DNA from: Acidobacteriota bacterium | GTDB taxonomy: Bacteria > Acidobacteriota > Terriglobia > Bryobacterales > Bryobacteraceae | Length of the DNA: 14,083 nt | NCBI GenBank assembly: GCA_026394095.1 | Contig: JAPKYY010000445.1 | Span: 1-14,083, forward strand | Reading direction: 5' to 3' | Part shown: positions 1 to 14,083 of the stretch, piece after piece | Numbering within the stretch: position 1 is the first letter of the stretch | Layout of the letters: each line of letters opens with the position of its first letter | Position numbers and translations under genes: made by a program | Notes under the pieces: generated by a model | What the model saw: only the letters and a program-made list of their open reading frames with translations | Database searches by the model: none | What the model was told of the DNA's origin: nothing

Positions 1-98
1 TCATCTCCGGCGGTATGGCGGCATCCAGTGGCCTCCACACTCAGGTCGGTTTGGCCGAATAACACGCTGCCCAGAAGCAGGATCCAAAGGATTCTCAA
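1..98 (-). CDS. P8: N-terminus of an eighth sensor phosphatase paralog (cut by window edge)
   Basis: Only the first 32 codons are in the window; the gene continues past position 1. It starts at TTG (98-96), which overlaps the TGA stop of P7 (97-95) in a TTGA junction. A good Shine-Dalgarno GGAGG lies at 108-104, five bases upstream and inside the last P7 codons. The peptide opens with a clear signal sequence (Arg, then about 12 hydrophobic residues, ending near FGQ). It continues with a Cys-containing ATGCRHTAGD segment that aligns with ADNCVHQAGD of P2 and ATNCVHQAGD of P6. It therefore most likely encodes another secreted-sensor/membrane phosphatase of the P2/P6 type. The phosphatase domain itself cannot be seen, so the full product is inferred from position, coupling and N-terminal similarity. 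Confidence 0.72.
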   Translation of the reverse strand, partial: MRILWILLLGSVLFGQTDLSVEATGCRHTAGD

Positions 99-1900
99 GT
101 GCGCCTCCGAACTGTTAAGACAGTGATGTCATCGGTTTGACCCCAAGCAAGCGCTGCCTCGGCAATCTCTGCTGCGGACTTCATCGACATCTCTCTCGTT
201 CGCTCAAATCCAAAAAGCACACGGCGCGCATTCTCGGCCTCCACCACTCCGTCTGAGACAAGCACCAACTGCTCGCCCGGAGCCAGCCTCGCCGCTACTT
301 CTTCATAAGTCGCCTCAGCCGTCACACCCAACGGGAGTCCCGGCGGAACCTCCAATTCCACCCCGGCGAGGAACGGGGAGGGGTGCCCGGCGCTTGCCAC
401 CACCACCTCTCCCCCAGGCGACAACCGCGCAATCGCGCATGTCACAAAACCGCCTGATCTACGCTGCACCAGCGACTGGTTCATCTCATCCAGCAAATCA
501 GCCGGACTACTCGAATGGCGGTTCCGCAGCGCGCCTAAAGCCAGTGCCACCACCATGGCAGCCTGCAATCCCTTGCCGCTCACATCACCCACCACCACCA
601 GCATCGTTCCGTCTGGTGCAGCAATCAGTTCATAGAAGTCGCCACCTACTTCTAGTGCTGGCCGGTATACAGCCTCGGCACTGCAACCTGCTTGATCCAG
701 AGTGTTCACCGACAACAGCGACATCTGCACACTGCGTGCGGAATCCATCTCCGCCGCAAGCCGGTCACGTTCCGCTCGCTGCCTTTTCAATCGTTCGAGG
801 TATTCAACCGACATCCACACCGAAGCCACTAGATAGGCGACAGGCGTAACGGGAATCGAGAATCCCAGCCACTGGATCTCGGGACCAGCGGCGGCAAAAC
901 GAAGGGCCGAAGAATTAACCACCAGGCTAATCGCGCTCGCCGCCGCCACGATCAATGCTGGGCCGACATAGGTGCGTTGCCAAAGCCGGATCAAGGCCAA
1001 ACTCAACGCCAAACCTTGAGGGATCAATACGGCCATGTTGCCAGCGTTGCCACTTGGGTTCGAGAATGGATTCAAAAATGGCCACAGCAAGGCCCCACAA
1101 TAAATGGAAGCTACGAGCCAAATGGCAAAGCGCCAGGGCCGACGGGCAAAGCCGAGAAAGTCGAGCGAAGTGATCACCCAACCAATCCAGCCCGCCGCAT
1201 TCAAAAGGGAAAACAATAAGCCCCACATGCTGCTGGCCGTCGATTCGTACCCCCGAAGATGGCTATTGAAGCACCACATGGCTCCCCAACCCGCAAGAAA
1301 CAATCCCGACGCGAAAAGGTCCCGCCGCCAAACGATCAATAGATAAAGACCCAAGGCGACTTGAGCCACCGAGAGTAGCAGGCGCGGATGAATCGCTTTG
1401 CGGTTTACGTTCCAAAACCGGTCGAGTGCCGATTGCGCAAAGGCTGCACTGCCCAACCGGTAGGTGGCACCATCGACAAATAAAGCGGCCCTCCAGACCT
1501 TAACTTCCCAACAGCGCAAAGCAATCGTCACCTCGCCCGCCGGTAGCCCGCCGGGCAATTGAAACGAACGCGGTTGCCACACTTCAACCCAGCGGCTGCC
1601 AAATCCGGGCACATCCCCCACACGCTGGCCATTCACATAGACTTCGAAGCTCGAAGCCACTCCCCCCAACACCAACACCGCTTCCGGCAGCGCCGCCTCC
1701 AGTGTCACCGTTTTGCGCAACCAGAACACACCTCCGGCCGGGCGTTCCTTCCACGGCAATTGCACCGTCGCCCAATCGCCAACCCCGGTCTGTGGACGCG
1801 CGAACGACTCTGTATCTACGCGCGACATCAGCCAGGGCCCTTCGAGCAAGATCTGCGCTTCCAAAGAAGCCGCCAGGAAGAGAAGAAGCAAGAACTTCAC
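95..1900 (-). CDS. P7: membrane sensor PP2C/SpoIIE (RsbU-type) serine phosphatase
   Basis: 601 aa. It probably dephosphorylates a phosphoserine STAS anti-anti-sigma factor in response to an extracytoplasmic signal. Residues 1-16 are a signal peptide. Residues about 17-150 are a beta-rich domain resembling the sugar-binding domain of family 2 glycosidases (WLRK near 60, FEVYVNGQRVG near 85-95). About seven hydrophobic segments follow (roughly 172-190, 196-212, 226-248, 257-275, 288-306, 311-332, 345-365), then a charged helical linker at 366-395. The PP2C core spans about 410-600 with metal-binding acids visible: D421 in EVGGDFY, D439 in GDVSGKG, D550 in SDGVVEAEN and D590/D591 in QTDD. The start is GTG at 1900, six bases after GGAG. 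Its N-domain lacks the GDNPxWAxxDFDD motif of P2, P4 and P6. Because the vapBC pair separates it from P6, it may need its own promoter, but none is clear. Substrate specificity is inferred. Confidence 0.92.
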   Translation of the reverse strand: MKFLLLLFLAASLEAQILLEGPWLMSRVDTESFARPQTGVGDWATVQLPWKERPAGGVFWLRKTVTLEAALPEAVLVLGGVASSFEVYVNGQRVGDVPGFGSRWVEVWQPRSFQLPGGLPAGEVTIALRCWEVKVWRAALFVDGATYRLGSAAFAQSALDRFWNVNRKAIHPRLLLSVAQVALGLYLLIVWRRDLFASGLFLAGWGAMWCFNSHLRGYESTASSMWGLLFSLLNAAGWIGWVITSLDFLGFARRPWRFAIWLVASIYCGALLWPFLNPFSNPSGNAGNMAVLIPQGLALSLALIRLWQRTYVGPALIVAAASAISLVVNSSALRFAAAGPEIQWLGFSIPVTPVAYLVASVWMSVEYLERLKRQRAERDRLAAEMDSARSVQMSLLSVNTLDQAGCSAEAVYRPALEVGGDFYELIAAPDGTMLVVVGDVSGKGLQAAMVVALALGALRNRHSSSPADLLDEMNQSLVQRRSGGFVTCAIARLSPGGEVVVASAGHPSPFLAGVELEVPPGLPLGVTAEATYEEVAARLAPGEQLVLVSDGVVEAENARRVLFGFERTREMSMKSAAEIAEAALAWGQTDDITVLTVRRRT

Positions 1901-1993
1901 TTTGATCTCCTAAGCTCGCCAGGCGCAAACAAAGCGCCAGATGACGAAATCCCGGCTGCAGTCATCTTTATGCTTTTATGTGAAGCTATATTT
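1901..1993. promoter_or_regulatory. Divergent intergenic region between P7 and vapB
   Basis: This 93-bp gap separates the P7 start (minus) from the vapB start (plus), so it should carry at least the vapBC promoter/operator and perhaps a P7 promoter. I see a perfect 7-bp inverted repeat (1939-1945 and 1961-1967, 15-nt spacer). I also see a 5-bp GGCGC/GCGCC hairpin (1922-1938) and three TTTATG hexamers (1967-1972, 1975-1980 and 1991-1996, the last containing the vapB start codon). No convincing -35/-10 pair was found on either strand. Confidence 0.4.
1939..1967. repeat. 7-bp inverted repeat, possible vapBC operator
   Basis: AGATGAC (1939-1945) is the exact reverse complement of GTCATCT (1961-1967), with a 15-nt spacer. 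It lies 27 bp upstream of the vapB start, where autoregulating ribbon-helix-helix antitoxins usually bind. A 7-bp match can occur by chance, so the operator role is a guess. Confidence 0.3.
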
Positions 1994-2218
1994 ATGCGAA
2001 CCACGATCGATCTTCCAGACGCACTCTTTCGCAAGACCAAAGCGAATGCCGCGCTCAGGGGTACATCGATGAAGGAACTGATTGTTGCGGCACTTGAGAA
2101 GGATCTCAACGCGACACCTCCGAAAGAGACCAGGCACCTGACGCTGCCTCTGATCCGCATGCCGAAGGGAAAGAAGCTAAACCTGAAGGGCGTTGACTTT
2201 GACGATCTACTTGCCTGA
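1994..2218 (+). CDS. vapB: VapB-like ribbon-helix-helix antitoxin
   Basis: 74 aa. The N-terminus MRTTIDLPDALFRKTKANAA is the typical ribbon-helix-helix DNA-binding segment of VapB-type antitoxins (beta strand at 2-7, helix at 9-21, a GTS turn, second helix at 25-38). The acidic tail ending GVDFDDLLA is the usual toxin-neutralising part. It probably binds the VapC toxin encoded next and represses its own operon. The ATG at 1994 gives the normal family start. An in-frame ATG at 1970 would add eight residues unlike the family, and the longer upstream reading frame is antisense to P7. The Shine-Dalgarno is weak (GAAG at 1982-1985). The gene overlaps vapC and is divergent from P7. Confidence 0.82.
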   Translation: MRTTIDLPDALFRKTKANAALRGTSMKELIVAALEKDLNATPPKETRHLTLPLIRMPKGKKLNLKGVDFDDLLA

Positions 2219-2633
2219 TGTCAACGTCTGGATCGCTCTCGCGGTTGACGCACACCCTCACCATCCCGCTGCCAAACGCTGGTTTGAGGCCCAGGGCAAG
2301 GTCTTGTTCGTATTCTGCCGGGTTACTGAAATGGGCTTGTTGCGGCTTCTCACCAATGCGCATGTGATGAATGATCATCCATTGTCGGCAGAATCGGCTT
2401 GGAAAATCCGAAAAGAATTCGAAACAGATGCCCGAGTAAAGTACGCAGCGGAACCAGACGGTTTTGAAGATGTATGGAAAGCCACAGCCAGGGCGGGAAA
2501 AGTAGGTCCGAATTTCTGGACGGATGCTTACCTCTCCAGTTTCTGCGCCAGCGCCGGGGCGACGATGGTGACCTTCGACCGTACTTTCGGGCGCCGTACT
2601 CCATGTAAAAAATTGCTGCTCGATGCCAGCTGA
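2199..2633 (+). CDS. vapC: VapC-like PIN-domain ribonuclease toxin
   Basis: About 144 aa, the size of PIN-domain toxins of the VapC type, which are metal-dependent RNases neutralised by the cognate VapB. The four expected acidic residues are visible (numbered from TTG 2199): D7 in LPDVNVWIAL, E44 in VTEMGLLRLLTN, D109 in WTDAYL and D127 in FDRTF. The HPHHPAAKRWF segment and the LLTN block match the mycobacterial-type PIN toxin family. I chose TTG at 2199 because GGG (2188-2190) lies eight bases upstream and the product then begins MTIYLPDVN; TTG at 2193 has the same frame but is only two bases from that site. It overlaps vapB by about 20 bp, implying translational coupling. Its stop lies 23 bp from the P6 stop, the two genes being convergent. 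It appears intact. Confidence 0.85.
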   Translation: MTIYLPDVNVWIALAVDAHPHHPAAKRWFEAQGKVLFVFCRVTEMGLLRLLTNAHVMNDHPLSAESAWKIRKEFETDARVKYAAEPDGFEDVWKATARAGKVGPNFWTDAYLSSFCASAGATMVTFDRTFGRRTPCKKLLLDAS

Positions 2634-2656
2634 GTCACAGGACTTAACGCAAACCC

Positions 2657-4501
2657 TCATACCTTCCTCCGCACCGTTACTACTGTGATGTCATCCGTCT
2701 GGCCCCAGGCTCGCGCCGCCTCGGCAATCTCTGGCGCAGTCTTCATCGACGTCTCCCGCGTTCGATCAAATCCAAACAGCTCACGCTGTGCGTTCTCGGC
2801 CTCGACGACTCCGTCTGAGACAAGCAAGAGGATTGACCCTTGGCTTGTGGATTCCTCGTAGGTGGCATTGGCAATAACGCCGAGTGGCAAGCCGCCTTCC
2901 ACCGGCATCTCACAGCCGTCGAGATAGGGAGAGGGGTGACCTCCACTTGCGACACTGACTTCTCCGTTGGGGCGGAATAGCGCTGCCGAACAGGTAACAA
3001 AGCCTCCACCGGTTTGTCCATACAGCGCGTTATTGAGGCCGTGCAAAAGTTGCGCGGGCGAACTGGTGTCTAAAGACCGCAGCGAGCCCAAGGCCACAGA
3101 CGCCAACATCGCTGCACGCAGGCCCTTGCCGCTGACGTCGCCCACAACGATCAGCTGCCCCTCGGCAGTCTCGCGCAAGAAATAGAAGTCGCCACCCACT
3201 TCTTTAGCCGGAAGGTATGCGACTTGAACGTCTGCCCACGCCGCGATGCCGGCAACAGAAGACGTAAGCAGTTGCTGCACTTCCTGGGCTGATTTCATCT
3301 CGCCTTGCAGTTCTGCCCGGTCCAGGGCAACCTGCCGGTTCTGGCGCGCGATCACGACGAAAAGCCCCAGGAGGACAAACAACGCCACTATCGATTGGAA
3401 ATTAGCGACATCGCCTTGAACACTGAACCCTTCGAGCCCCCTCACTTGAGGCAACAAGCGCACGATCAAGCCCAGCATGAAAAGAAGACTCAAATTCCGG
3501 GCTAAGCGCAGCGACGGTGGCACTTGCGAGAATGGCCAGAATGCCGCGGCCGGAGCGGTGACCAAAAGCAACAACAATGGGATGCCAAAGCCTCCCCAGC
3601 CTGCCGCCTGCTGCGCAAACTGAATCGGAGCATACAGCGCCGCAAAGGCCCGAAGCACTATGAATAAGACTGAGGCTGCGGCCAGCAGGGAATAAAAAGT
3701 TGGAACCCGTCGCCCGGTCATGCAAAAGAAAGTATTGGGGAATGTTCCAAACGCAATGGCGGTCAGAGGGCCCCATAGGGCGACATAAAGCCAGTTGGGA
3801 AATCCGGATGCGGTTTGCACCAAATAGTATTCCTGAAAGCGCAGGAATCCATAGCAGACGCTGTAGAGCCCGAACCAGAGCAGGCTGCGCTGGCTTCGGT
3901 CTCCAGAAAAGAAGAACAGCAGGAGAAGCACCATTCCGATCACCACCGTAAACGCACCGCCGGCCCAACTGGGCCAGGTTCGCCACAGAGCCGCGGAGAG
4001 TCCTTCGGAGTGCCACACTCTCAAGGAATCTGGGTGCCCAGCGGCGATGGAGGGCCGCAAGGCGGGAATGATGAAGCGGCCCGGGAGTTGCCGTAGCGCC
4101 ACGACTGTTGAGTGCTGTCTACCGGCCCCGGCAGGCAAAGGGCGCTGCTGGAAATAGAAGCTGGAGAAACCCGTCTGCAAGTCGCCGAATGACCCGGCCG
4201 CCTGGCCATCGACAAACAACTCCCATGCCGTAGCCGGCGGTGCGCTGCGGCCCCTTGTGAAGATGCCACCCTCGACCCCGATGGAAGCAGTAGCCGGAAG
4301 AGTGGATAGATCCAAGTGGCAGCGTGTCCAGATAAAGGGATTGCCGATCTTGGGAAACTCGGCAGACCACTGGCTGTCGTCGAAGTCTGGGCGAGCCCAG
4401 TCTGGATTGTCGCCTGCCTGATGGACGCAGTTGGTGGCGGTGACGATTTGCGCTGAGAGTCCCTGCAGTGTCAGCAGCGCCACAAGCAGAAGCCTATACA
4501 T
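2657..4501 (-). CDS. P6: membrane sensor PP2C/SpoIIE (RsbU-type) serine phosphatase
   Basis: 614 aa from ATG 4501. Residues 1-18 are a signal peptide. Residues 19-170 form a jelly-roll-like extracytoplasmic domain with CVHQAGDNPDWARPDFDDSQW (about 25-45, broken here only for reference) and WTRC near 58-61; C25 and C61 could form a disulfide. Seven hydrophobic segments lie at about 181-199, 204-224, 236-258, 268-292, 304-323, 334-350 and 366-386, then a helical linker with a VQQLL motif. The PP2C core carries D438 (EVGGDFY), D455 (GDVSGKG), D563 (SDGVVEAEN) and D603/D604 (QTDD), so it looks catalytically complete. The TTG at 4513 is rejected as start because the codons after it are themselves the Shine-Dalgarno. 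The gene overlaps the P5 stop by 8 bp. P2, not its neighbour P5, is its closest relative in the window across the whole length. Substrate (the STAS protein at 12983-13327) is inferred. Confidence 0.93.
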   Translation of the reverse strand: MYRLLLVALLTLQGLSAQIVTATNCVHQAGDNPDWARPDFDDSQWSAEFPKIGNPFIWTRCHLDLSTLPATASIGVEGGIFTRGRSAPPATAWELFVDGQAAGSFGDLQTGFSSFYFQQRPLPAGAGRQHSTVVALRQLPGRFIIPALRPSIAAGHPDSLRVWHSEGLSAALWRTWPSWAGGAFTVVIGMVLLLLFFFSGDRSQRSLLWFGLYSVCYGFLRFQEYYLVQTASGFPNWLYVALWGPLTAIAFGTFPNTFFCMTGRRVPTFYSLLAAASVLFIVLRAFAALYAPIQFAQQAAGWGGFGIPLLLLLVTAPAAAFWPFSQVPPSLRLARNLSLLFMLGLIVRLLPQVRGLEGFSVQGDVANFQSIVALFVLLGLFVVIARQNRQVALDRAELQGEMKSAQEVQQLLTSSVAGIAAWADVQVAYLPAKEVGGDFYFLRETAEGQLIVVGDVSGKGLRAAMLASVALGSLRSLDTSSPAQLLHGLNNALYGQTGGGFVTCSAALFRPNGEVSVASGGHPSPYLDGCEMPVEGGLPLGVIANATYEESTSQGSILLLVSDGVVEAENAQRELFGFDRTRETSMKTAPEIAEAARAWGQTDDITVVTVRRKV

Positions 4502-6263: not shown

Positions 6264-8107
6264 GCCTTACTCCGCACCGTCACGACAGTGATGTCATCGG
6301 TCTGGCCCCAGGCCCTGGCGGCTTCGGCAATCTCCTGCGCGGACTTGCCGCTGATCTCGCGCGTGCGGTCGAAGCCGAAGAGCTCGCGGTGGGCGTTCTC
6401 TGCTTCAACGACTCCATCGGAGACGAAGCTAAACCGCCCCCCAGCCAAGACAGATTCGCCATAGGGAATTCCATCCATGATCCCCAATGGCAGCCCGGCC
6501 TCCACTTCCACTTCACGGCCATCGCAATAAGGTGCGGGATGGCCGGCGTTGGCTATCGTGACCGTGCCATCGGTAGCAAACAGAGCACAGCAACAGGTGA
6601 CGAAGCCACCCTGGGACCGGCGATGCAGCGTCTGATTCAATCGCGAGAGTACTTCCCCCGGAGCGAGATCGGTGAGGGTTTCTAGCGCACCCAGCAGGCG
6701 CGCGCCCATCATCGCCGCCTCTAGTCCCTTGCCGCTCACATCGCCTACAACCACCATCAAAGTGCCATCGCTTCGCGGCATGAGCTGGTAGAAGTCTCCA
6801 CCGACTTCGAGGGCGGGCAAATAGGCCTTTTCGACCTCGAACAGGGACGTTCCCGTGGATTCGCTTTGCAGCAGAAACTCCTGCACCCGCTGCCCGGCGG
6901 CCAGTTCCTGCGCCTGCCGTCGCTGCTCTTTTTGTTCGTCCCGGAATCGAAGATAGAGCACGGCCAGACAGCACAAAGCGGACGCTGCCAGGGCCATATC
7001 TCTAAGATCAAAAGTGTAGCCTTGCCAATCGATAAGATTTGAGCCAAATCGTCCGGAAAACCGAACAAGGGTAAAAAGAACCAGGAAGACTGCCACAACG
7101 CCATCCCGCCTTTGACGCTTAGTCAGGAGCAGCGAGATAGCGACTATTGCTTGCGCACACAGAATGATTGCAGGTTCAAAGCTAATGTATTCGGTGCGTT
7201 CGAAATCGAAATAGTAGTAAGTGAAGAACCAAATTGCCTGAAGTATACTGATCCCCCAGGTAAAGAACATCAACCAGCGCGCACGAGGAGCGAGCTCCTT
7301 GAGGAACAAGCTAGTCCAGGAAGCTGCCGCGATATATCCCAACACGATCAGCGACGCGATGAGGGATCGCCTTGGCAGATCGAGACTCACCGCAACGATG
7401 CCCAGATGAGAGAAGAGTCCGAAAGACCCCATCGCCAAACCGAGCCAGAGATACTCGCGGCGAGCCCGTTGCTCAAAGTAGAGCACCATGGCGATCAAGC
7501 CCAAGAGCAATAGAATCCAGGATGCAGCGCGCCTGGGGCTTCTGGACCGCTCTCCCTCCAAACGGTGGAGTTCCTCCTGGGCCTGCAGAAGGGCCGCCAG
7601 GCCGACGCGCGGCGGATGCTTCGTTCCCCCGATCTGGCCAGCCGCTGTCAGTGGAACCAGGTTGCTGTTGCTTTTGCCCGCCCAGCGCCGGATGGCGATT
7701 GTGATCGTATCCGATCTTTGAGCTGGTAGTGGATAAGCGGCATGACGATCAAAACGGCCTACGGGTGAAGGGTCAATCGACCCGATTCCGCCGACGCGCA
7801 CTCCATCGACAAAGACCTCATAGGCTTCGTCCATCGGGGGAAGGGCGATGGCGAGCGATTGCGTAGCCAAAACTGGAGGCAAGCGAAGCCGGGTTCGGTA
7901 CCAACGGATGCCGCTGGTCTGGATGCCTGCACGGGTCACGTACAACTGCGGCGCTCCGCTTGCCTGCCAACTCTGGTCGTCGAAATCTGAGGCTGCCCAT
8001 GCCGGATTGTCACCGGCCTTGACCTTCCAGCGATTCAGATCAATTGCTCCTTCTTGCGCGCTCGCCACAAGCAAAGCCAAAGCAAAACTCGAAATCAGCC
8101 GGATCAA
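6260..8107 (-). CDS. P4: membrane sensor PP2C/SpoIIE (RsbU-type) serine phosphatase
   Basis: 615 aa from TTG 8107. This start has GGAGGG eight bases upstream and gives a normal signal peptide (MIRLISSFALALLVASAQ). The in-frame ATG at 8158 would add a hydrophilic lead of 17 residues with no family match. The extracytoplasmic domain (about 18-190) carries KAGDNPAWAASDFDDQSW and WYRTRLRLP, matching the sugar-binding jelly-roll pattern. A charged stretch at about 173-195 precedes seven hydrophobic segments (196-212, 218-241, 250-271, 277-299, 310-329, 335-351, 369-387). The PP2C core shows D438 (EVGGDFY), D456 (GDVSGKG), D564 (SDGVVEAEN) and D604/D605 (QTDD). The mazEF-like pair separates it from P3, and the 84-bp region upstream would have to hold any promoter. 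Its stop overlaps the P5 start (ATGA). Catalytically complete by motif; ligand and target are inferred. Confidence 0.9.
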   Translation of the reverse strand: MIRLISSFALALLVASAQEGAIDLNRWKVKAGDNPAWAASDFDDQSWQASGAPQLYVTRAGIQTSGIRWYRTRLRLPPVLATQSLAIALPPMDEAYEVFVDGVRVGGIGSIDPSPVGRFDRHAAYPLPAQRSDTITIAIRRWAGKSNSNLVPLTAAGQIGGTKHPPRVGLAALLQAQEELHRLEGERSRSPRRAASWILLLLGLIAMVLYFEQRARREYLWLGLAMGSFGLFSHLGIVAVSLDLPRRSLIASLIVLGYIAAASWTSLFLKELAPRARWLMFFTWGISILQAIWFFTYYYFDFERTEYISFEPAIILCAQAIVAISLLLTKRQRRDGVVAVFLVLFTLVRFSGRFGSNLIDWQGYTFDLRDMALAASALCCLAVLYLRFRDEQKEQRRQAQELAAGQRVQEFLLQSESTGTSLFEVEKAYLPALEVGGDFYQLMPRSDGTLMVVVGDVSGKGLEAAMMGARLLGALETLTDLAPGEVLSRLNQTLHRRSQGGFVTCCCALFATDGTVTIANAGHPAPYCDGREVEVEAGLPLGIMDGIPYGESVLAGGRFSFVSDGVVEAENAHRELFGFDRTREISGKSAQEIAEAARAWGQTDDITVVTVRSKA

Positions 8108-8154
8108 TATAGTTCCCTCCACGCCGTCACCAAGGTTGTGCTGTCGTTGCTTCC
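8104..8154 (-). pseudogene. Remnant of a phosphatase paralog C-terminus before P4
   Basis: The frame ending at the TGA 8106-8104 reads GSNDSTTLVTAWRELY, which aligns without gaps to GQTDDITVVTVRRK, the conserved end of the paralogs. At DNA level GTGACGGCGTGGAGG matches the common GTGACGGTGCGGAGG at 13 of 15 positions. The stop overlaps the P4 TTG as TTGA, exactly the junction type seen between intact paralogs. The second Asp of the TDD metal motif is lost (NDS). I read it as the tail of a paralog replaced by the mazEF-like insertion. It is short, so a partial coincidence is possible. Confidence 0.5.
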
Positions 8155-8191
8155 ACATGCGATATATAGATGGAAGAGATAGATAAACACT
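8108..8191. promoter_or_regulatory. Divergent region between P4 and the MazE-like gene
   Basis: The 84-bp gap holds the P4 ribosome site, the phosphatase-tail remnant and an AT-rich stretch (TATATA at 8163-8168) that is the likeliest -10 region for the plus-strand TA pair. The nearest -35-like hexamers (TTGTGC 8136-8141, TTGCTT 8147-8152) have poor spacing, so no promoter is assigned. Confidence 0.35.
8115..8120 (-). promoter_or_regulatory. Ribosome binding site deciding the P4 start
   Basis: GGAGGG on the minus strand lies seven bases before TTG 8107 and supports that start over ATG 8158. It falls within the short phosphatase C-terminus-like remnant, the position it occupies at the intact junctions of the array. 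Confidence 0.65.
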
Positions 8192-8407
8192 ATGCCCCAG
8201 GTATTAGTCCATTTCGATGAGGCAACGTTGCAGGCCATCGACCGGATCGCACCCGCTGCCAAGCGCCAGCGGGCCGACTTCATCCGGAAGGCCGTCAAGG
8301 ATGCGCTGTTTCTGAGGGAGACAGAACGAATGCGCGAGGCATATCGCTTGCAGCCGGATACCGCCGAGGACGCAGACCATTGGGAACTTCCGGAGGAATG
8401 GGAGTAG
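8192..8407 (+). CDS. MazE-like/CopG-type ribbon-helix-helix antitoxin
   Basis: 71 aa. Residues 3-8 (QVLVHF) form the expected DNA-binding beta strand. Helices at about 9-20 and 26-42, with the RADFIRKAVKDAL segment, complete a ribbon-helix-helix fold. The acidic Trp-containing tail (DADHWELPEEWE) is the typical toxin-binding end of antitoxins paired with MazF-type toxins. It probably neutralised the adjacent MazF-like protein and bound its own promoter. The Shine-Dalgarno is weak. Its TAG stop overlaps the GTG start of the MazF-like frame by one base (TAGTG), the usual coupled arrangement. The antitoxin looks intact although its toxin partner does not, so it may now be an orphan repressor. 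The name of the exact antitoxin family is less sure than the fold. Confidence 0.75.
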   Translation: MPQVLVHFDEATLQAIDRIAPAAKRQRADFIRKAVKDALFLRETERMREAYRLQPDTAEDADHWELPEEWE

Positions 8408-8739
8408 TGAAGCAGTTTGAGATCTGATGGGCAGACTTGCCAGAGCCCGTGGGAAAGCGTCCCGTGCTGCTGCTGAGCCGCAACGACGCCTATGGTTATC
8501 TTTCCAAGTTCATCGCGGTGGAAGTTACGTCGACAGTGCGCGGGATCGCAAGCGAAGTCGCCTTGGGAGAAGACGAAGGGCTGCCCAAGCCCTGCGTGGC
8601 CAATTGCGACAGCCTGCGCATGGTTCCTCGTTCGTCCCTGACTCGGCTGGCTGGCCAATTGGCACCAGAGCGTTGGGTGGAGGCCAAGCGCGCGATGGGT
8701 GCGGCCTTGGGCTGGCGTGAATTGACCGACCTCGACTAG
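8407..8739 (+). pseudogene. mazF: MazF-like endoribonuclease toxin interrupted by a TGA codon
   Basis: From GTG 8407 the frame reads VKQFEI, then TGA (8425-8427), then WADLPEPVGKRPVLLLSR and on to TAG at 8737. The MazF/PemK family has EIWWADLP here, so TGA replaces the first Trp of a WW pair (a TGG to TGA change). Downstream the family pattern is complete: RPVLLLSRNDAY, an IAVEVTSTVRGI block, EVALGEDEGLPKPCVANCD and a helical C-terminus. The product should be a sequence-specific mRNA-cleaving toxin. Because of the stop, a full-length toxin is not made unless the codon is read through. A TTG at 8437 could restart a shortened form lacking the first core strand. The gene is convergent with P3, five bases apart. 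A sequencing error at one base would be the simplest alternative. Confidence 0.8.
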
Positions 8740-8744
8740 AGCTT

Positions 8745-10352
8745 TCAAGCATTCCTCCGCACCGTCACCACCGTGATGTCGTCGGTCTGACCCCAGGCCT
8801 TCGCCGCATTGGCAATTTCGTGCGCGGACCGGGTGCTGATCTCACGAGTGCGGTCGAACCCGAACAGTTCACGGTTGGCGTTCTCGGCTTCCACCACGCC
8901 GTCGGAAACAAAAGTGAAACTCTCTCCGTGCGTGAAGGATTGCGGGTATTCAGCACCAGCGGCGATGCCCAGCGGCAGCCCCGGTTCGGTTTCTAATTCG
9001 CGGCCATCGCAGTAAGGCGAAGGATGCCCCGCGTTGGCGATGACGGATTCTCCATTGGGCCGGATCAGCACCGCGCAGCATGTTACGAAGCCGGATTGCA
9101 TATAAGCCTTGGCAGCACCATTGAGTTCTTCGAGGAATCCACCGGGCCTGCGGGTTCGGATCGCCTCCATCGCACACACCAACCCAGCCACGGTCATCGC
9201 CGCCTTCAGACCTTTGCCGGAAACGTCGCCGACCACCACCAAAGTGGCTCCGTCATCAGCCGGGAAAACGCGGTAGAAATCGCCCCCCACCTGGCTGGCC
9301 GGGAGATAGGCGAATTCCACCGCCAGGCCCGGTGTCTCCGGTACCCGCTGCACCAGCGCCTGCTGCATTTCCCGCGCGGCTTCGAACTCGGCGCTGAGCC
9401 CTTGCCGCTCCAGCCACGTGCGCCAAACCCCGCGGAACAACACCCATGCCATCGTTAGAAAAAGCAATATCTGGAAGTTGTCTTGCAGCTCGACCGGGAC
9501 ACCGAAGACCGACCAGGATTGGGGAATCCAGCGGACGACAGTCAACCCCAAAACAAACCGGAAGATGACCAGCGCGAAGGCGATCCAGTCGTTAGGGCGC
9601 AGGCGTTCCTTGAGCACGAACAACGAGAAGATGGCAAAGACGCCGATGGTGATGGCTTCCTGCATGATCTTGAGCTGCGGCGTGGTGAATGGGCCACCGA
9701 ACTGCAGGCTGCCCAGCCGGTTGGCGGGCACCTGCAGGCAGTATTCAGGGAGCGCGATGAGCCAGGAGATCCCAATTGCCGCGAACATCGACCATTCGGC
9801 CTTGCGGATGTGGTAAAGGACGACCAACAGATAGGCCTGGAGCGCAGCGTCGCGCGCGCGGAGAGCCGCCAGTCGCATCCCATCGCGCGAACCGACCTCG
9901 ATCTTTGGAAGTGACACGGTCTCGCCGCGCAGACTGGATGGTACCCAGATCCGGCGCGCTACCAAGACCGAGCGAACTCCTGCTTCGCCGCCCGCAGGTA
10001 AATCATAGACCTTTTCATAAACTGAGGAGTCCATGTATGCGTCGGGAGGGAGCCTTCCGCTCGATCCCACGTACGCGCCGTCAACTCGCAACTCCACCGG
10101 AAAATTCGGCAACAAGGTCTGTTGTTTCAACCGCAACCAAAGCGCCGCATCGCCGGCAGGAGCACTCATCCGCTGTCGCACCCATAGGAAACCATCGCCT
10201 TGCTTCGGTGGCGCGGGCAGAGAATCATTCTCAACAACGGGCCAAGCCGAATCGTCGAAGTCCGAAGCCGCCCAACGCGGGTCATCGCCGAAGTGGTAGC
10301 GGACCTGCGCCTGTACGGTTACGGCAATGAAAAAGAGAACGAAGAATCTCAT
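8745..10352 (-). CDS. P3: shorter membrane sensor PP2C/SpoIIE (RsbU-type) serine phosphatase
   Basis: 535 aa, about 55-80 residues shorter than the other full copies. Signal peptide at 1-15, then a jelly-roll-like domain to about 155 with GDDPRWAASDFDDSAWP (22-38), WVRQRMSAP and an ELRVDGAYVGSSG strand. I count only about five hydrophobic segments (167-182, 186-207, 225-247, 254-274, 291-309). An odd number still places the phosphatase in the cytoplasm. The linker (SAEFEAAREMQQALVQ) leads to a PP2C core with D358 (QVGGDFY), D376 (GDVSGKG), D484 (SDGVVEAEN) and D524/D525 (QTDD). The ATG at 10352 overlaps the P2 TGA (ATGA), with AAGGA at 10360-10364 upstream. Its last codons contain GGAGG followed by a TTGA junction that now leads into antisense TA sequence rather than the next paralog. 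Substrate is inferred. Confidence 0.92.
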   Translation of the reverse strand: MRFFVLFFIAVTVQAQVRYHFGDDPRWAASDFDDSAWPVVENDSLPAPPKQGDGFLWVRQRMSAPAGDAALWLRLKQQTLLPNFPVELRVDGAYVGSSGRLPPDAYMDSSVYEKVYDLPAGGEAGVRSVLVARRIWVPSSLRGETVSLPKIEVGSRDGMRLAALRARDAALQAYLLVVLYHIRKAEWSMFAAIGISWLIALPEYCLQVPANRLGSLQFGGPFTTPQLKIMQEAITIGVFAIFSLFVLKERLRPNDWIAFALVIFRFVLGLTVVRWIPQSWSVFGVPVELQDNFQILLFLTMAWVLFRGVWRTWLERQGLSAEFEAAREMQQALVQRVPETPGLAVEFAYLPASQVGGDFYRVFPADDGATLVVVGDVSGKGLKAAMTVAGLVCAMEAIRTRRPGGFLEELNGAAKAYMQSGFVTCCAVLIRPNGESVIANAGHPSPYCDGRELETEPGLPLGIAAGAEYPQSFTHGESFTFVSDGVVEAENANRELFGFDRTREISTRSAHEIANAAKAWGQTDDITVVTVRRNA

Positions 10353-12169
10353 GAATTTTTCCTTCGCACCGTCACCACCGTGATGTCGTCATTCTGGCCC
10401 CAGGCTTTGGCCGTGTCGGCAATCGCTTGCGCAGACTTCATCGATATCTCCCGAGTCTGGTCAAACCCAAAGAGCTCGCGCTGCGCGTTCTCCGCTTCAA
10501 CGACGCCGTCAGAGACGAGTGTTATGCTGTCGCCATGGCCGGTGGATTCCTGGTAGTCGGAATCCGGCATGATCCCCAAGGGAAGCCCAGCTTCCACCGG
10601 AAACTCCTGGCCGCCCACATAAGGCGACGGGTGCCCCGCGTTGGCTACGATCAGTTGCCCGTCCTTACTCATCAGAGCTGCGCAGCAGGTGACGAAGCCT
10701 CCCCCTACCTGACCGTGCAACACTCTGTTCATGCCCTGCAAAAGACTCGCTGGGGAGTTGGTGTCCAGCGCGCGGACGGCACCCAGCGCTGCTGAGGCGA
10801 GCATGCCGGCGCGCAGGCCTTTGCCGCTTACGTCGCCCACTACGATCAACTGTCCGTCTTGTGTCTGACGGCTGAAGTAAAAGTCTCCGCCGACCTCTTT
10901 GGCCGGCAGGTATGCGACATCCACCGAAGCCCAGGGTGCGACGTCGGGAGTTGATGAGGTGAGCACCCACTGCACCTCTTGCGCCGCCTTCATCTCGCCC
11001 TGCAACTCCGCGCGATTGAGAGCCACCTGACGGTGCCGCTGAGCAATCACAACGAAGAGGCCAATGAGCGCAATGAGGTTGAAGCCGGCCTGTACGTTGG
11101 CTCCCGGGGTCATCCAGGCAGATAGGTCAAAACCGGCAAGCTGAGGCATAAGCCTTGCCCAATAACCCAACAGGAAGAGCAGGCTCAAGCTGCAAGATAG
11201 ACGCAGAGGACGGGGCACCTGCCAAAGTGGCCAAAATGCGGCAGCGGCAGCGGTGCCAATGAGCATCCGTAGGTATATGAAATAGGGATTCATCGCCCGC
11301 ACCTGATGAATCTGTTCGATTGGTGCCAGGAGCGCCATTGCCGTCAAAGAGAGGTCCCAGGCGGTTACTATCATCGACAACCAGAAATAGAAGGCCGGCA
11401 GCGGCCGGCCAGCCAAAGCGAAGAAGAACCTTGGCAGTACCAGGGCCATGACGGCATTCGCCAGACCCAAACAGGGGATAAAGAGCCAGTCGGAAAAGAC
11501 CGTTGCAATAATAAGCGGAAAAGACGCGCCGCAGCGAAAAGAACCCAGTGCAAGAGAGTAAATGCCGAACCAGAGCAATTCCTTCTGACTCTTGTCTGCG
11601 GAAAATGCAAAGAGCAGGAGCAGCAGGATTCCGATCGCCAGGCTGAATCCACCTCCCAGTAGAGCGGGCGCTTGCTCCGAAAGTTGCGTGAGAATGGCAT
11701 TCGACTGCCAGTACTGAAGCGCGACCTGAGTCCCGGCGACTGGGATCAGCGCCATGAGGGGAATGTTGTTGCGGCCCGTCAACTGTCGCACCGCCACGCT
11801 GATAGAGTTGCGCGTTGCAGCGGATCCCGGGATCGGGCGTTTCTGGTACGACGTCCCGGCAAAGCCGGTTCGGATGTCACCGAAGGAACCTGCTGCCTCG
11901 CCTTCCACGAAGAGTTCCCAGGCAGCGAAGCTCCTTATCTCGATATAGACCTGTTCGGTTCGCGGCAAGGACCGCAGATCGATCCGGCAACGTGTCCAGA
12001 TGTAGGGGCTGCCTTTGGCTGGGTACTGCTTGCTCCACTGGCTGTCATCGAAGTCCGGACGGGCCCAGTCGGGGTTGTCGCCTGCTTGATGAACGCAGTT
12101 GTCTGCGGTGACCACTTGCGCACTGAGCATTGGGGTCGCCAGCAGGATGGCGATCCAGAGCTTAAGCAT
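10349..12169 (-). CDS. P2: membrane sensor PP2C/SpoIIE (RsbU-type) serine phosphatase
   Basis: 606 aa from ATG 12169. This start has GGAGG four bases upstream and a clean signal peptide (MLKLWIAILLATPMLSAQ). The open frame runs 108 codons further upstream, but that part is an out-of-frame shadow of P1 and is rejected. The extracytoplasmic domain (about 19-165) has CVHQAGDNPDWARPDFDD around 25-42 and WTRC near 58-61; C25 and C61 are at the same positions as in P6. Seven hydrophobic segments: about 170-189, 196-214, 222-250, 258-284, 295-315, 323-340 and 362-377. The linker with AELQGEMKAAQEVQ leads to the PP2C core: D429 (EVGGDFY), D446 (GDVSGKG), D554 (SDGVVEAEN) and D594/D595 (QNDD). It overlaps P1 by 8 bp and P3 by 4 bp. 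P6 is its closest relative here, which points to a block duplication within the array. Ligand and target are inferred. Confidence 0.93.
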   Translation of the reverse strand: MLKLWIAILLATPMLSAQVVTADNCVHQAGDNPDWARPDFDDSQWSKQYPAKGSPYIWTRCRIDLRSLPRTEQVYIEIRSFAAWELFVEGEAAGSFGDIRTGFAGTSYQKRPIPGSAATRNSISVAVRQLTGRNNIPLMALIPVAGTQVALQYWQSNAILTQLSEQAPALLGGGFSLAIGILLLLLFAFSADKSQKELLWFGIYSLALGSFRCGASFPLIIATVFSDWLFIPCLGLANAVMALVLPRFFFALAGRPLPAFYFWLSMIVTAWDLSLTAMALLAPIEQIHQVRAMNPYFIYLRMLIGTAAAAAFWPLWQVPRPLRLSCSLSLLFLLGYWARLMPQLAGFDLSAWMTPGANVQAGFNLIALIGLFVVIAQRHRQVALNRAELQGEMKAAQEVQWVLTSSTPDVAPWASVDVAYLPAKEVGGDFYFSRQTQDGQLIVVGDVSGKGLRAGMLASAALGAVRALDTNSPASLLQGMNRVLHGQVGGGFVTCCAALMSKDGQLIVANAGHPSPYVGGQEFPVEAGLPLGIMPDSDYQESTGHGDSITLVSDGVVEAENAQRELFGFDQTREISMKSAQAIADTAKAWGQNDDITVVTVRRKNS

Positions 12170-12974
12170 GTTTCCTCCGCACCGTGACCACGGTAATGTC
12201 GTCGTTCTGGCCCCAGGCCTTCGCCTCGTCGGCGATCTCTTGGGCGGACTTCGTCGAGATCTCGCGGGTTCGGTGGAAGCCGAAGAGTTCGCGCTGTGCG
12301 TTCTCGGCTTCCACGACTCCGTCGGAAACAAAAACAAAGCACTTTCTGCGGGATTGTTTCTCTTGATACTCAACGCCATGGAGTATGTCCAGTGGCAAAC
12401 CGGCTTCGAGTTCCACGTCCTGCCCGTCAACCCAGGCTGAAAGATGCCCGACATTTGCCAAAACCACTTGGCCATCAGCCTCAAAGATTGCACGATTCAG
12501 GTGCGCCAGCACCTCGGCAGGCTGGCGGGAGACGAGATCTCCCAGTGCACCGACAACAGCCGCTACCAGCAGTGAAGCTGGCAGGCCCTTTCCGCTTACA
12601 TCTCCAGTTACCACGAGTAAAGATCCATCCTTAGCTAGCGTGGTGTGATAGAAATCTCCGCCAACTTCTTTCGCCGGCAGGTACAAGGCATCTACAGACC
12701 ACTCGGGCGAGTTTTGCACCTTGCGTGCAGCCCCAAGATCCCGGTCCAGCCAGGAACCATGCGTGTTCACCAGCTTGCTCTCGACGTAGATGCGGGAAGG
12801 ATCGAATATACGGGTAAGTTCCGGCCAGCGACCAGTCTGCCAGGCGGAATCGTCAAAATCAGCTGCGGCCCAGGAGAGGTTATCCCCTGCTTGTGTACGC
12901 CAATGGGGAAGCTCCTGGGCCGCCAATCCGCATGTCAGCACTACTCCTAGAATGAATCCGGGCAGCGCCAACAT
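12162..12974 (-). CDS. P1: truncated paralog, signal peptide joined to a shortened PP2C domain, no membrane segments
   Basis: 270 aa from ATG 12974. Signal peptide at about 1-19, then only the beginning of the jelly-roll domain (AGDNLSWAAADFDDSAW at 29-45, up to about 70). The sequence then jumps to the phosphatase linker (WLDRDLGAARKVQ at 75-87), so the rest of the sensor and all membrane segments are missing. The PP2C part keeps D107 (EVGGDFY), D125 (GDVSGKG), D218 (SDGVVEAEN) and D258/D259 (QNDD). It lacks about 15 residues around 164-168 that include the usual GGFVTC strand, and it has changed NAGHPSPY to NVGHLSAW and LPLGI to LPLDI. Both deletions keep the frame. It may be degenerate, or a signal-anchored or exported variant. 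It begins 8 bp after the STAS gene with a poor Shine-Dalgarno. An earlier in-frame start at 13091 would overlap the STAS gene and is not supported. Confidence 0.82.
   Translation of the reverse strand: MLALPGFILGVVLTCGLAAQELPHWRTQAGDNLSWAAADFDDSAWQTGRWPELTRIFDPSRIYVESKLVNTHGSWLDRDLGAARKVQNSPEWSVDALYLPAKEVGGDFYHTTLAKDGSLLVVTGDVSGKGLPASLLVAAVVGALGDLVSRQPAEVLAHLNRAIFEADGQVVLANVGHLSAWVDGQDVELEAGLPLDILHGVEYQEKQSRRKCFVFVSDGVVEAENAQRELFGFHRTREISTKSAQEIADEAKAWGQNDDITVVTVRRKHA
12174..12178 (-). promoter_or_regulatory. Ribosome binding site deciding the P2 start
   Basis: GGAGG on the minus strand, four bases before ATG 12169, is formed by the Arg-Arg codons at the end of P1. It supports the short P2 start and translational coupling to P1. 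Confidence 0.75.
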
Positions 12975-12982
12975 CGCCTGAC

Positions 12983-13327
12983 TTATCCAACCGCCGTGCG
13001 AGCTGCAGCTTCGTCCGGCTCGAGGGTGGTGTACTTGGCCAGGCCCAGCATGGTGAAGACCTTCACGAAGTGAGCGCTCAAGCCAAAACACACTACCTTC
13101 TGGGGTACCTTGCTGGCAGCCATGAGCAACTGAATGACGAGGGCGATGCCGCTTGAATTCAGGTAAGGCACCTTTGAGAAATCGAGCAGGATCTTCTTTG
13201 TATCGCCGCTCAACTTCTTGTAGTATCCCAGCACCGCTTCTTCTGAAGTGCTGGTGATATCGCCTTCAAACCGCATCACGGCCAGATCGCCGCTTTGATC
13301 TACTTTTGTCTTTGTAGCTGTAACCAT
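12983..13327 (-). CDS. STAS-domain anti-anti-sigma factor (RsbV/SpoIIAA-like)
   Basis: 114 aa, the normal size of a single STAS domain. In partner-switching systems the unphosphorylated form binds the anti-sigma kinase and frees its target; kinase phosphorylation on a Ser blocks this and PP2C phosphatases restore it. The phosphorylation loop is YLNSSGIAL, with S58/S59 at the position of the SpoIIAA phosphoserine. The usual Asp before the serines is Asn here (N57). The pattern DLAVMRFEGDI at the front and LLDFSKVPYL before the loop fit the fold. The ATG at 13327 follows GAGGA by seven bases and lies three bases after the kinase stop. Position between the kinase and the phosphatase array makes it the obvious shared substrate of P1 to P8, which is inference from order. 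Confidence 0.92.
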   Translation of the reverse strand: MVTATKTKVDQSGDLAVMRFEGDITSTSEEAVLGYYKKLSGDTKKILLDFSKVPYLNSSGIALVIQLLMAASKVPQKVVCFGLSAHFVKVFTMLGLAKYTTLEPDEAAARTAVG

Positions 13328-13330
13328 AAC

Positions 13331-13771
13331 TTATTCCTCATCCCTCGCATCTAAATGAATCACCAGGCGGGCATAGCCGCCCGCGGTTTCCTGTCCGTAT
13401 TCCACTTCGTCCACCAGCGCCTGAATGAGGAACATCCCCATCCCGCGCGGGGTTTCTTCTCCGGCCATCTTACGGTCGATGTCCGGAATGTGGGCGTCGC
13501 TCGGAACACCCTTGCCTTCGTCTCGAATCTTGACCTCAAGGGACTTGTCGTCCATCGATAAGGTCACTACCACGCCCAGCAGCTCATTCATCTCATTACC
13601 GTGTTCGATCGCGTTGATACAGGCTTCGGCTACGGCGGTCTTGAGATCGTCGACACGGTCTGGCGAGAAGCCCATGATCTGGGCGACGCTGGCGGCCGTG
13701 TTCATTGCTACCTTTTCGAAGCCGAGCCGTGTTGGCAGCCGCAACTCCGTGATGATCGGACTATCGATCAT
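13331..13771 (-). CDS. RsbW/SpoIIAB-like serine kinase/anti-sigma factor (HATPase domain)
   Basis: 146 aa, the typical size for this GHKL-type ATPase family. Motifs in order: N box EACINAIEHG (49-58, with E49 and N53), G1 box DEGKG (84-88) and G2 box RGMGMFLI (109-116). It should bind ATP and phosphorylate the STAS protein encoded next. It may also hold a sigma factor or another output partner, but none is encoded in the window. The ATG at 13771 overlaps the upstream TGA (ATGA) and has an excellent AAGGAGG six bases before it. The gene is intact and is followed three bases later by the STAS gene, the classic kinase/antagonist pairing. Confidence 0.92.
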   Translation of the reverse strand: MIDSPIITELRLPTRLGFEKVAMNTAASVAQIMGFSPDRVDDLKTAVAEACINAIEHGNEMNELLGVVVTLSMDDKSLEVKIRDEGKGVPSDAHIPDIDRKMAGEETPRGMGMFLIQALVDEVEYGQETAGGYARLVIHLDARDEE

Positions 13772-14082
13772 GAATGCCCTCCTTGCTGGGCGCGGTATAA
13801 ATAGAGCGCCGTCATGTCATCGGTCTGTTTCGCGTTGCCGGCAAACTGCGCCAGACTCCGCCATGCATGGTCTAGAAATGCTTCTTGAGGTGTGGGCTCA
13901 ATCAGGCCTAACAAGCGCTCTTCACCAAACTCTTCATCGCCCTGAAAGACTTCCGTCAAGCCGTCAGTGTATAGCAGCAACTGAGCACCGGGGTTGAATG
14001 TCCAGCTTTCTGTTTCGTAGGTGCGGCCGGGGAGCATTCCGAGCGGTGGGCCGCTGGCTCCGATCAGAATCGGCTGCTCTGT
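13768..14082 (-). CDS. Soluble-type SpoIIE/RsbU PP2C phosphatase, C-terminal part
   Basis: Only the last 104 or so codons are present; the 5' end lies beyond the right edge. The visible part carries ASGPPLGMLPG, LLLYTDGLTEVF (metal-binding Asp) and KQTDDMTALYLYR (paired Asp), which are the closing motifs of SpoIIE/RsbU phosphatases. It is clearly a different subfamily from P1 to P8, which have SDGVVEAEN and the long FGFDRTREIS tail. It ends in an ATGA overlap with the kinase gene, so phosphatase, kinase and STAS genes look like one partner-switching operon. Any N-terminal sensory domain (response regulator receiver, GAF, PAS) cannot be judged here. Confidence 0.88.
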   Translation of the reverse strand, partial: TEQPILIGASGPPLGMLPGRTYETESWTFNPGAQLLLYTDGLTEVFQGDEEFGEERLLGLIEPTPQEAFLDHAWRSLAQFAGNAKQTDDMTALYLYRAQQGGHS

Positions 14083-14083
14083 G

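Follow-up and report, generated by a model that had tools for sequence, protein, structure and literature searches.

A tandem array of sensor phosphatases behind one kinase-STAS core in Bryobacteraceae, with its coding strand open across reversed toxin-antitoxin genes

The locus

The window analysed here is the whole of contig JAPKYY010000445.1 (C1032; 14,083 nucleotides, nt), from the draft genome (5.05 Mb, 1077 contigs) of an Acidobacteriota bacterium of the family Bryobacteraceae. Its minus strand carries, in this order, the 3′ end of a SpoIIE-type phosphatase gene (P1), an RsbW-like kinase gene, a STAS gene and seven tandem genes of one sensor phosphatase array (P2 to P8). The two larger gaps of the array hold plus-strand genes: a MazEF-like pair (8192-8739) between P4 and P5, and a VapBC pair (1994-2633) between P7 and P8. 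These reversed toxin-antitoxin genes, which split the array, are absent from a preliminary description of the locus. The most surprising result is that the array strand is open across them.

P1 (13768-14083; PF07228, E 1e-19) is cut by the contig end. The kinase gene (13331-13771; 4-nt overlap with P1) encodes a HATPase_c_2 domain (PF13581, E 3.1e-23; 82.6 bits, cut-off 27.4). Its product lies under the NCBIfam cut-offs for RsbW equivalogs (NF003144, 67.1 of 145 bits; TIGR01924, 57.3 of 155 bits) and, on these matches, is classed as RsbW- or SpoIIAB-like, not filed as RsbW. The STAS gene (12983-13327) encodes an anti-anti-sigma-like protein (PF01740, E 1.6e-9; 37.9 bits, cut-off 22.6) that stays below the cut-off of TIGR00377 (40.6 against 53.45 bits); it is followed on the same strand, 8 nt further, by P2. 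P1 is 98% identical to a 403-amino-acid (aa) SpoIIE protein of G003, a genome of the same genus (L102:15386-16597). To array members it is 24-33% identical where alignable (44% in one 16-residue stretch), and by sequence it is placed in a separate SpoIIE family, outside the array family. The preliminary description had a kinase and a STAS gene followed by at least eight tandem paralogs. The core and the paralogs behind it, on one strand, are found as described; P1 is the gene upstream of the kinase, so that seven genes, not eight, follow STAS.

The array genes are P2 (12162-12974; a 270-aa product), P3 (10349-12169; 8-nt overlap with P2), P4 (8745-10352; 4-nt overlap with P3), P5 (6260-8107; TTG start), P6 (4494-6263; 4-nt overlap with P5), P7 (2657-4501; 8-nt overlap with P6) and P8 (95-1900; GTG start), all on the minus strand. 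Contacts from P1 to P8, counting the open reading frames (ORFs) that bridge the inserts, are overlaps of 4 or 8 nt or gaps of 3 or 8 nt; the exception is a 55-nt overlap between two bridge ORFs (B1 and B2, below). Both ends of the window are cut: the contig stops 94 bp past P8 and inside P1. No second place was found in the genome for the last 120 bases of the window, the end that was searched. No sigma factor gene is present in the window, itself cut at both ends. Promoter-like sites are at chance level (4 found, 4.2 expected) and terminator-like sites number 26 (15.5 in shuffles); neither were used.

Open frames across the inserts

The bridges run from the overlap at the preceding stop to the overlap at the following start. 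Bridge A (8104-8748, minus strand; 214 codons, antisense to the MazEF-like genes) has its start in the TTGA at the P4 stop and its end in the TTGA at the P5 start, with 4-nt overlaps on both sides. The VapBC insert is spanned by two minus-strand ORFs: B1 (2106-2660; 184 codons, antisense to VapC), with a 4-nt overlap with the P7 stop, and B2 (1897-2160; 87 codons, antisense to VapB), which overlaps B1 and runs 4 nt into the P8 start. Overlaps of 4 nt are the usual contact between close paralogs (30 of 38, on 17 contigs).

A first test comprised 16 gaps with marked opposite-strand genes, out of 20 listed. The four left out (G004C21 1745/end and 15824/up; G004C316 5494/5997 and STAS/3704) have no clearly marked opposite-strand gene. 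The P5 start was taken as 8113; the corrected start, 8107, puts the end of bridge A inside the overlap. A restart codon was found at -3 in 13 of the 16 gaps and at 0 in one. The restart ORF covered a fraction of 0.740 of the gap, where synonymous shuffles gave 0.214 (at most 0.381 in 400 runs); with the ORF ending at the next start, the fraction was 0.918, against 0.483 (shuffle maximum: 0.643). A single ORF covered the whole gap in 5 of 16 cases (0.26 expected; maximum: 2).

A second test used contigs of three other genera, fetched after the first, with 10 of 13 stretches retained (three without a clearly marked opposite-strand gene were dropped). The restart was at -3 in all ten; the restart ORF covered the whole gap in nine, and a stop fell at the next start in nine. 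Two of the ten next starts were taken from an ORF listing, and the stop position in G118C368 was set by hand and later checked. One gap has no marked cassette gene, hence no null. The RHH-MazF cassette of G244C8 (18609-18968), which lies beside a gene remnant, was excluded.

Genes of the same families outside arrays served as controls. Uma2 genes lack codon-aligned antisense stops in 9 of 9 in-array copies and in 1 of 20 outside genes (Fisher p 1e-6; model of the nine in-array copies, outside genes kept from 31 loci, nine under a stricter filter). Uma2 genes beside rather than inside arrays (e.g. G020:C74:117-488) are not counted. A stop-free antisense frame is present in 10 of 10 in-array MazF genes and in 2 of 11 outside genes (p 2e-4). 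In 3 of the 10 this frame is not codon-aligned, and the codon-aligned frame alone gives a weaker contrast (7 of 10 against 2 of 11, p 0.02). The 11 outside MazF genes were recovered among 30 loci by the in-array model; a separate listing holds 59 matches. In the 25 cassette genes of the first set, TTA, CTA and TCA codons number 20 (46.1 expected). Fourteen of these lie in two nucleotidyltransferase (NTase) genes and in the RHH-MazF toxin gene of G002, which are bridged in another frame.

That codon usage, or the shared descent of a few toxin-antitoxin lineages, left the antisense frames open, without selection for translation across the inserts, is unlikely. Codon-aligned antisense frames are naturally stop-poor in G+C-rich genes, and cassettes are related between arrays: in-array MazF genes are nearest to in-array copies, the window MazF being 95% identical to that of G173 (another genus) against 40% for the best outside copy fetched. 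However, the 20 outside Uma2 genes carry TTA, CTA and TCA codons at the expected count (56 observed, 53.6 expected) and the in-array copies carry none. Most families have the open frame codon-aligned; RHH-MazF and NTase cassettes have a different one open, as a bridge demands. The restart at -3, in the stop overlap, prevails in both sets of gaps. The open antisense frames across the inserts are therefore read as probably reflecting selection to translate one giant polycistron without interruption.

No account of such arrays or bridges was recognised in the literature searched; most subscription papers were outside its scope, and this is not proof that none is published.

The reversed cassettes

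The VapC-like PIN toxin gene (2208-2633, plus strand; ORF listed from 2193, start approximate) matches TIGR00028 with 116 bits (cut-off 73.6) and PF01850. It has an adjacent small VapB-like antitoxin gene (1994-2218, plus strand), whose matches are under cut-off (PF09386, 20.7 bits; PF09957, 13.6 bits). In the other insert, a 71-aa ORF (8192-8407, plus strand), by its position a putative MazE-like antitoxin gene, has relatives in arrays. The MazF/PemK-like toxin gene follows (8410-8739, plus strand; PF02452, E 7e-9 on 8437-8739; 36.3 bits, cut-off 23.1), yet its frame is interrupted by one stop. MazF of the window is probably inactive because of this in-frame stop near the 5′ end. The MazF frame is thus broken while the bridge on the opposite strand stays open; uninterrupted MazF relatives occur in other arrays.

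Gaps in relatives hold, also on the opposite strand, Uma2, MazF/PemK, RHH-MazF, nucleotidyltransferase with HepT, DUF2204-type nucleotidyltransferase and PIN genes. Cassettes of the second set are named by resemblance, and part of them was scanned. Junctions may be filled in one genome and empty or tight in another: at P7/P8, VapBC is present in the window and nothing in G003; at P6/P7, the genes adjoin tightly in the window and are separated by Uma2 in G003. The neighbours of related cassettes are mostly related at the level of paralogs (25-38% identity), with four exceptions at 49-81%. The right neighbours of an NTase cassette are 72% identical between G020 and G118; a gene at 80% identity lies to the right of RHH-MazF in G002 and to its left in G118; for one Uma2, the right neighbour in G007 and the left neighbour in G020 share 58%; for an NTase, the right neighbour in G004 and the left one in G020 share 49%.

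The comparison with outside loci is limited to Uma2 and PemK. The kinship of Uma2 is mixed, one in-array copy being closer to an outside gene (72%) than to in-array copies (59%); two in-array Uma2 are omitted from this conclusion (G004, probably the wrong strand; G020a, no relative found). Uma2 gene matches, counted in seven genomes, number 1 in the array-less G006 and 5-17 in six array-bearing relatives.

The array proteins

PF07228 is matched over its curated cut-off in P1 to P8 (64-125 bits; cut-off 25). P3 to P8 have all the PP2C motifs GGDF, GDVSGKG, SDGV and DD, which are the metal-binding motifs (GGDF, GDVSGKG, SDG, DD) of SpoIIE/PPM phosphatases. P2 also has the motifs and lacks the GGFVT segment; the P1 fragment is too short for this check. 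Mean pairwise identity is 72-87% in the last three 20-column blocks of the alignment (phosphatase). In the sensor and membrane part, nearly all blocks are at 11-31%, with one at 42%. The near-uniform phosphatase attributed earlier to P2 to P7 is thus borne out in the terminal blocks. The membrane region attributed to each of them is missing from P2, which consists of a signal peptide, the start of a sensor and a SpoIIE domain. Aligned with array members, P2 looks like a deletion remnant, fused from two neighbour genes that G003 still has.

The sensors had been described as different domains; they align as a single family. A profile of 33 proteins matches GH2 sugar-binding domains (6D8G, E 5e-14). 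In the structure model of P3, the one array protein modelled, predicted strands lie within residues 19-146 and membrane helices within 167-404. Foldseek returned GH2 enzymes and bundles like those of G-protein-coupled receptors only at E above 0.001, and the list of the VIA fold search was taken up by matches to the PP2C domain. The jelly-roll assignment rests on the profile match because the fold searches gave no strong sensor match. The predicted architecture is a GH2-type jelly roll, a membrane bundle (seven transmembrane helices in P3) and a SpoIIE/PP2C domain, with the sensors as diverged copies of one design. Residues 180-264 of P4 (9561-9815) match DUF486/DMT_6 (E 1e-23), which replaces the usual seven-helix bundle: a natural receptor chimaera.

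In pairs with sensor identity below 25%, the phosphatase part is still about 58% identical. Of six other SpoIIE loci tried in the genome, four yielded sequence; tested with the array phosphatase profile, their proteins do not exceed 92 bits, while P2 to P8 score 253-325 bits. Both observations fit a common substrate of the array phosphatases. Gene conversion within genomes was rejected as the main cause of phosphatase uniformity: at sensor identity below 0.25, pairs within and between genomes have similar phosphatase identity (0.588 and 0.584).

Array size, core and distribution

Within the genus, five of eight genomes have array-type genes (G000, G002, G003, G004, G007), as does G020, of another genus; the remaining genomes searched gave only weaker, general SpoIIE matches. 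Nine genomes were searched for the kinase (E <= 1e-20). One copy is present in G000, G003, G004, G007 and G020 and two in G002; none was found in G001, G005 and G006, of the same genus and array-less. The kinase thus occurs in 6 of 6 array genomes and in 0 of 3 same-genus genomes without an array.

Array length varies in relatives from 1 to about 25-27 genes. G003 has 6, 13 and 8 complete or partial array genes on three contigs (24 span the model, 3 are partial). Its core contig C1 joins C106 by an exact 119-bp overlap. The join of C106 to C75 rests on the gene order common with the window, in which P3, P5, P6, P7 and P8 recur across C106 and C75 at 0.81-0.95 sensor identity; that of C75 to C56 rests on the single core only. 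The 25-27 genes of G003 in one array are therefore an estimate. In G244, 15 model-spanning genes lie on one 34.6-kb contig. Behind a visible core, G108 has five array genes and broken ones, G185 two, G067 one and G193 one. As genome architecture, one core with many phosphatases holds up: the kinase is single (two in G002), including in G003. The array is real; its size in relatives exceeds what was first supposed, and four corrections to its description were needed.

The array profile is matched at E <= 1e-70 in 23 of 257 genomes of the order (10 of 84 genera) and in 22 of 396 genomes drawn from the phylum (5 and 3 candidates scored per genome, respectively; own genome included). In the phylum draw, most matches outside the family of the window are isolated genes whose listed places are widely separated; at least one pair is adjacent (G645). 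L054 (G004:C21) includes several phosphatase genes broken by stops or by split frames, and not all of its junctions are bridged; arrays therefore decay too.

Insulated pathways, in which every array phosphatase would act on a STAS partner of its own encoded elsewhere in the genome and tandem duplication would only have placed the genes together, are also unlikely. SpoIIE-type phosphatases, including RsbU, have high specificity for their own STAS substrates through docking loops (PMC11418112), and relatives have additional STAS genes close to the core: a second one precedes P1 in G003, G020, G108 and G193, and none was seen there in G007. Against dedicated partners stand the phosphatase domain, conserved where sensors are not, and the one kinase copy of this type for 25-27 genes in G003. 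The reshuffling of sensors and phosphatases (below) would moreover scramble dedicated pairs. Many-to-one dephosphorylation of the linked STAS protein appears to be the best reading.

Gene ends and reshuffling

The last 44-50 nt of array genes (AWGQNDDITVVTVRR) include a Shine-Dalgarno-like GGAGG and run into the overlapping start of the next gene. Copies of this 3′ end exceed the null maximum (14.0 bits) in 10 of the 20 listed gaps (24 to 102 bits). They are 19 to 57 nt long (126 in one), and the DNA further upstream is unrelated in several. The MazEF gap of the window has a short copy (13.0 bits), and VapBC gaps have none. The last array gene in G003 and G007 lacks the GGAGG end. The gap tails are read as retained ribosome-binding and coupling ends, which may also aid homologous recombination. 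After the end of the array, G003 and G007 (L050:14530-16635, L064:786-2891) have the same reversed gene for a 701-aa protein, with a weak VWA match.

Ten pairs among 51 model-spanning proteins have sensor identity below 0.5 and phosphatase identity above 0.78. For one quartet, all 1000 bootstraps of the sensor part recover one grouping, and all 1000 of the phosphatase part recover a different one. Sensors have thus been exchanged between phosphatases.

An integron-like array, in which each gene or toxin-antitoxin pair would be a cassette ending in a 44-50 bp site and moved by a site-specific recombinase, is quite improbable: copies of the 3′ end directly before the next start, several without phosphatase homology upstream, related cassettes at mostly non-orthologous junctions and junctions filled or empty (window against G003) would fit it, but the repeat is kept as protein and not as DNA (in genes, the site varies at third codon positions), tails range from none to 126 nt, no site was found outside array contigs in the eight genomes of the genus, the integrase TIGR02249 is over cut-off in 1 of 26 genomes and in none of G000-G007 (a search that covered neither G020 nor the later array genomes), and homologous recombination between similar gene ends suffices.

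Proposed mechanism

The anatomy, one core per array in most array genomes, the coupled layout, the open bridges and the reshuffling are taken from sequence comparison as established. The STAS protein as substrate, the ligand, the output, translation of the bridges and polarity as a selective force are the conditional parts of the model built on them: a partner switch with multiplied input, expressed as a coupled polycistron bridged over cassettes. This model is considered moderately probable.

The RsbW-like kinase would phosphorylate the STAS protein, and an array phosphatase would dephosphorylate this same protein once its periplasmic GH2-type jelly roll binds a ligand, presumably a glycan or sugar-like molecule. 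Any of many ligands would thus lead to one output. P1 would add a further input, probably cytosolic. The output may be a sigma-54 activator or another partner of the kinase. A divergent sigma-54 activator gene precedes the core in G003 (L102:13528-14928), G007 and G020, and G108 has a similar one beside the core. Among 11 genomes, orthologs (66-100% identity) were found only in G003, G007 and G020, the G020 copy having one stop. It is the sole candidate output, a plausible one; the preliminary description named none. The activator loci beside the core are L102:13176-14928, L103:3982-5373 and L197:14736-15998.

Translational coupling and Rho-dependent polarity are established phenomena. The array would be one very long, translationally coupled polycistron, each 3′ end giving a Shine-Dalgarno-like sequence and the next overlapping start. 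At an insert, ribosomes would restart in the previous stop, traverse the bridge ORF and finish at the next start. Reversed toxin-antitoxin and Uma2 cassettes would persist where the array strand stays open; a gap left untranslated would break the coupling to the next gene and favour Rho-dependent termination. Conservation of the phosphatase part would permit recombination, pairing phosphatases with other sensors. The toxin-antitoxin pairs may be passengers or guardians; perhaps the resident pairs guard the array against deletion. Confidence is evenly balanced for the fuller picture of a ribosome-continuous array: a very long receptor operon that enlarges through tandem duplication and swapped sensors and hosts circulating lineages, proper to it, of reversed toxin-antitoxin and Uma2 genes. 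These would act as two-strand sequences, with the protein on one strand and on the other a bridge that is selected though meaningless as protein and that spares the operon the loss of all genes downstream. The array would be a fast-evolving many-to-one glycan front end for one partner switch.

Several points weigh against this model. By the rule used, no restart codon was found in 2 of the 16 gaps of the first test (counted as zero). Single-gap p values are 0.002-0.16 (14 gaps with a restart codon), mostly only 0.01-0.15, and the strength of the bridge evidence therefore lies in the sum over gaps. Cassette copies are interrelated, with only about seven to nine lineages, so that gaps are not independent events and the p values overstate independence. 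NTase and RHH-MazF cassettes have codon-aligned antisense stops, the bridge there lying in another frame. The bootstrap quartet was chosen because it looked incongruent. The sensor ligand is guessed from the fold alone. Pfam matches of the genes flanking the core in G185, G067 and G193 showed no sigma-54 activator, and the search for its orthologs gave none in G002 and G004. In other genera, array-type genes occur with no kinase or STAS match in the stretch read (11 named loci annotated). Arrays without a linked kinase-STAS pair had been named beforehand as the case against a shared core, and they exist in part, as single genes, a pair and a short run in eight loci: two genes in L111/G106C47, a short run in L160, and one gene each in L113, L115, L134, L139, L146 and L150. 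Finally, every array genome is a draft assembly, that of the window included.

Relation to known systems

As in the RsbU/RsbV/RsbW and SpoIIE/SpoIIAA/SpoIIAB systems of Bacillus subtilis, a PPM/SpoIIE phosphatase, a STAS protein and a HATPase_c_2 kinase are encoded together, and the PP2C fold and motifs are shared. RsbU/SpoIIE partner-switching systems usually have one phosphatase or a few. In the arrays, the tandem membrane sensors behind one core number from 1 to about 25-27; no sigma factor is seen next to the core, and some relatives have a sigma-54 activator.

7TMR-DISM receptors resemble the P3 model in having a periplasmic domain, a seven-helix membrane bundle, a long helix and a cytoplasmic signalling domain, and some of the 120 P5 homologs listed carry PF07695 with PF07228. 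However, among the seven array proteins PF07695 is matched only in P7, below cut-off (15.1 of 29 bits), the periplasmic domain matches GH2 sugar-binding domains, and the P4 membrane segment differs. SiaA of Pseudomonas aeruginosa is a membrane sensor with a PP2C domain, encoded by a single gene and with another sensor; the NCBIfam SiaA model is far under cut-off (27 of 700 bits for P8). Chromosomal integrons likewise are long one-direction arrays with toxin-antitoxin units that change place. In contrast, G000-G007 have no integrase above the cut-off, the repeat here is the 3′ end of coding sequence, and the cassettes are antisense, with bridges and coupled translation.

Significance

Phosphatase specificity is an open question in the partner-switching pathway. 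If many sensors feed one STAS protein, the array is an extreme many-to-one design, in which array size is a natural variable. If the bridges are translated, they are a case in which a need for unbroken translation has altered, through selection, the codons used by unrelated opposite-strand genes, and polarity and translational coupling become testable evolutionary forces. The bridges would then also warn annotators that long antisense ORFs can be functional without a useful protein product.

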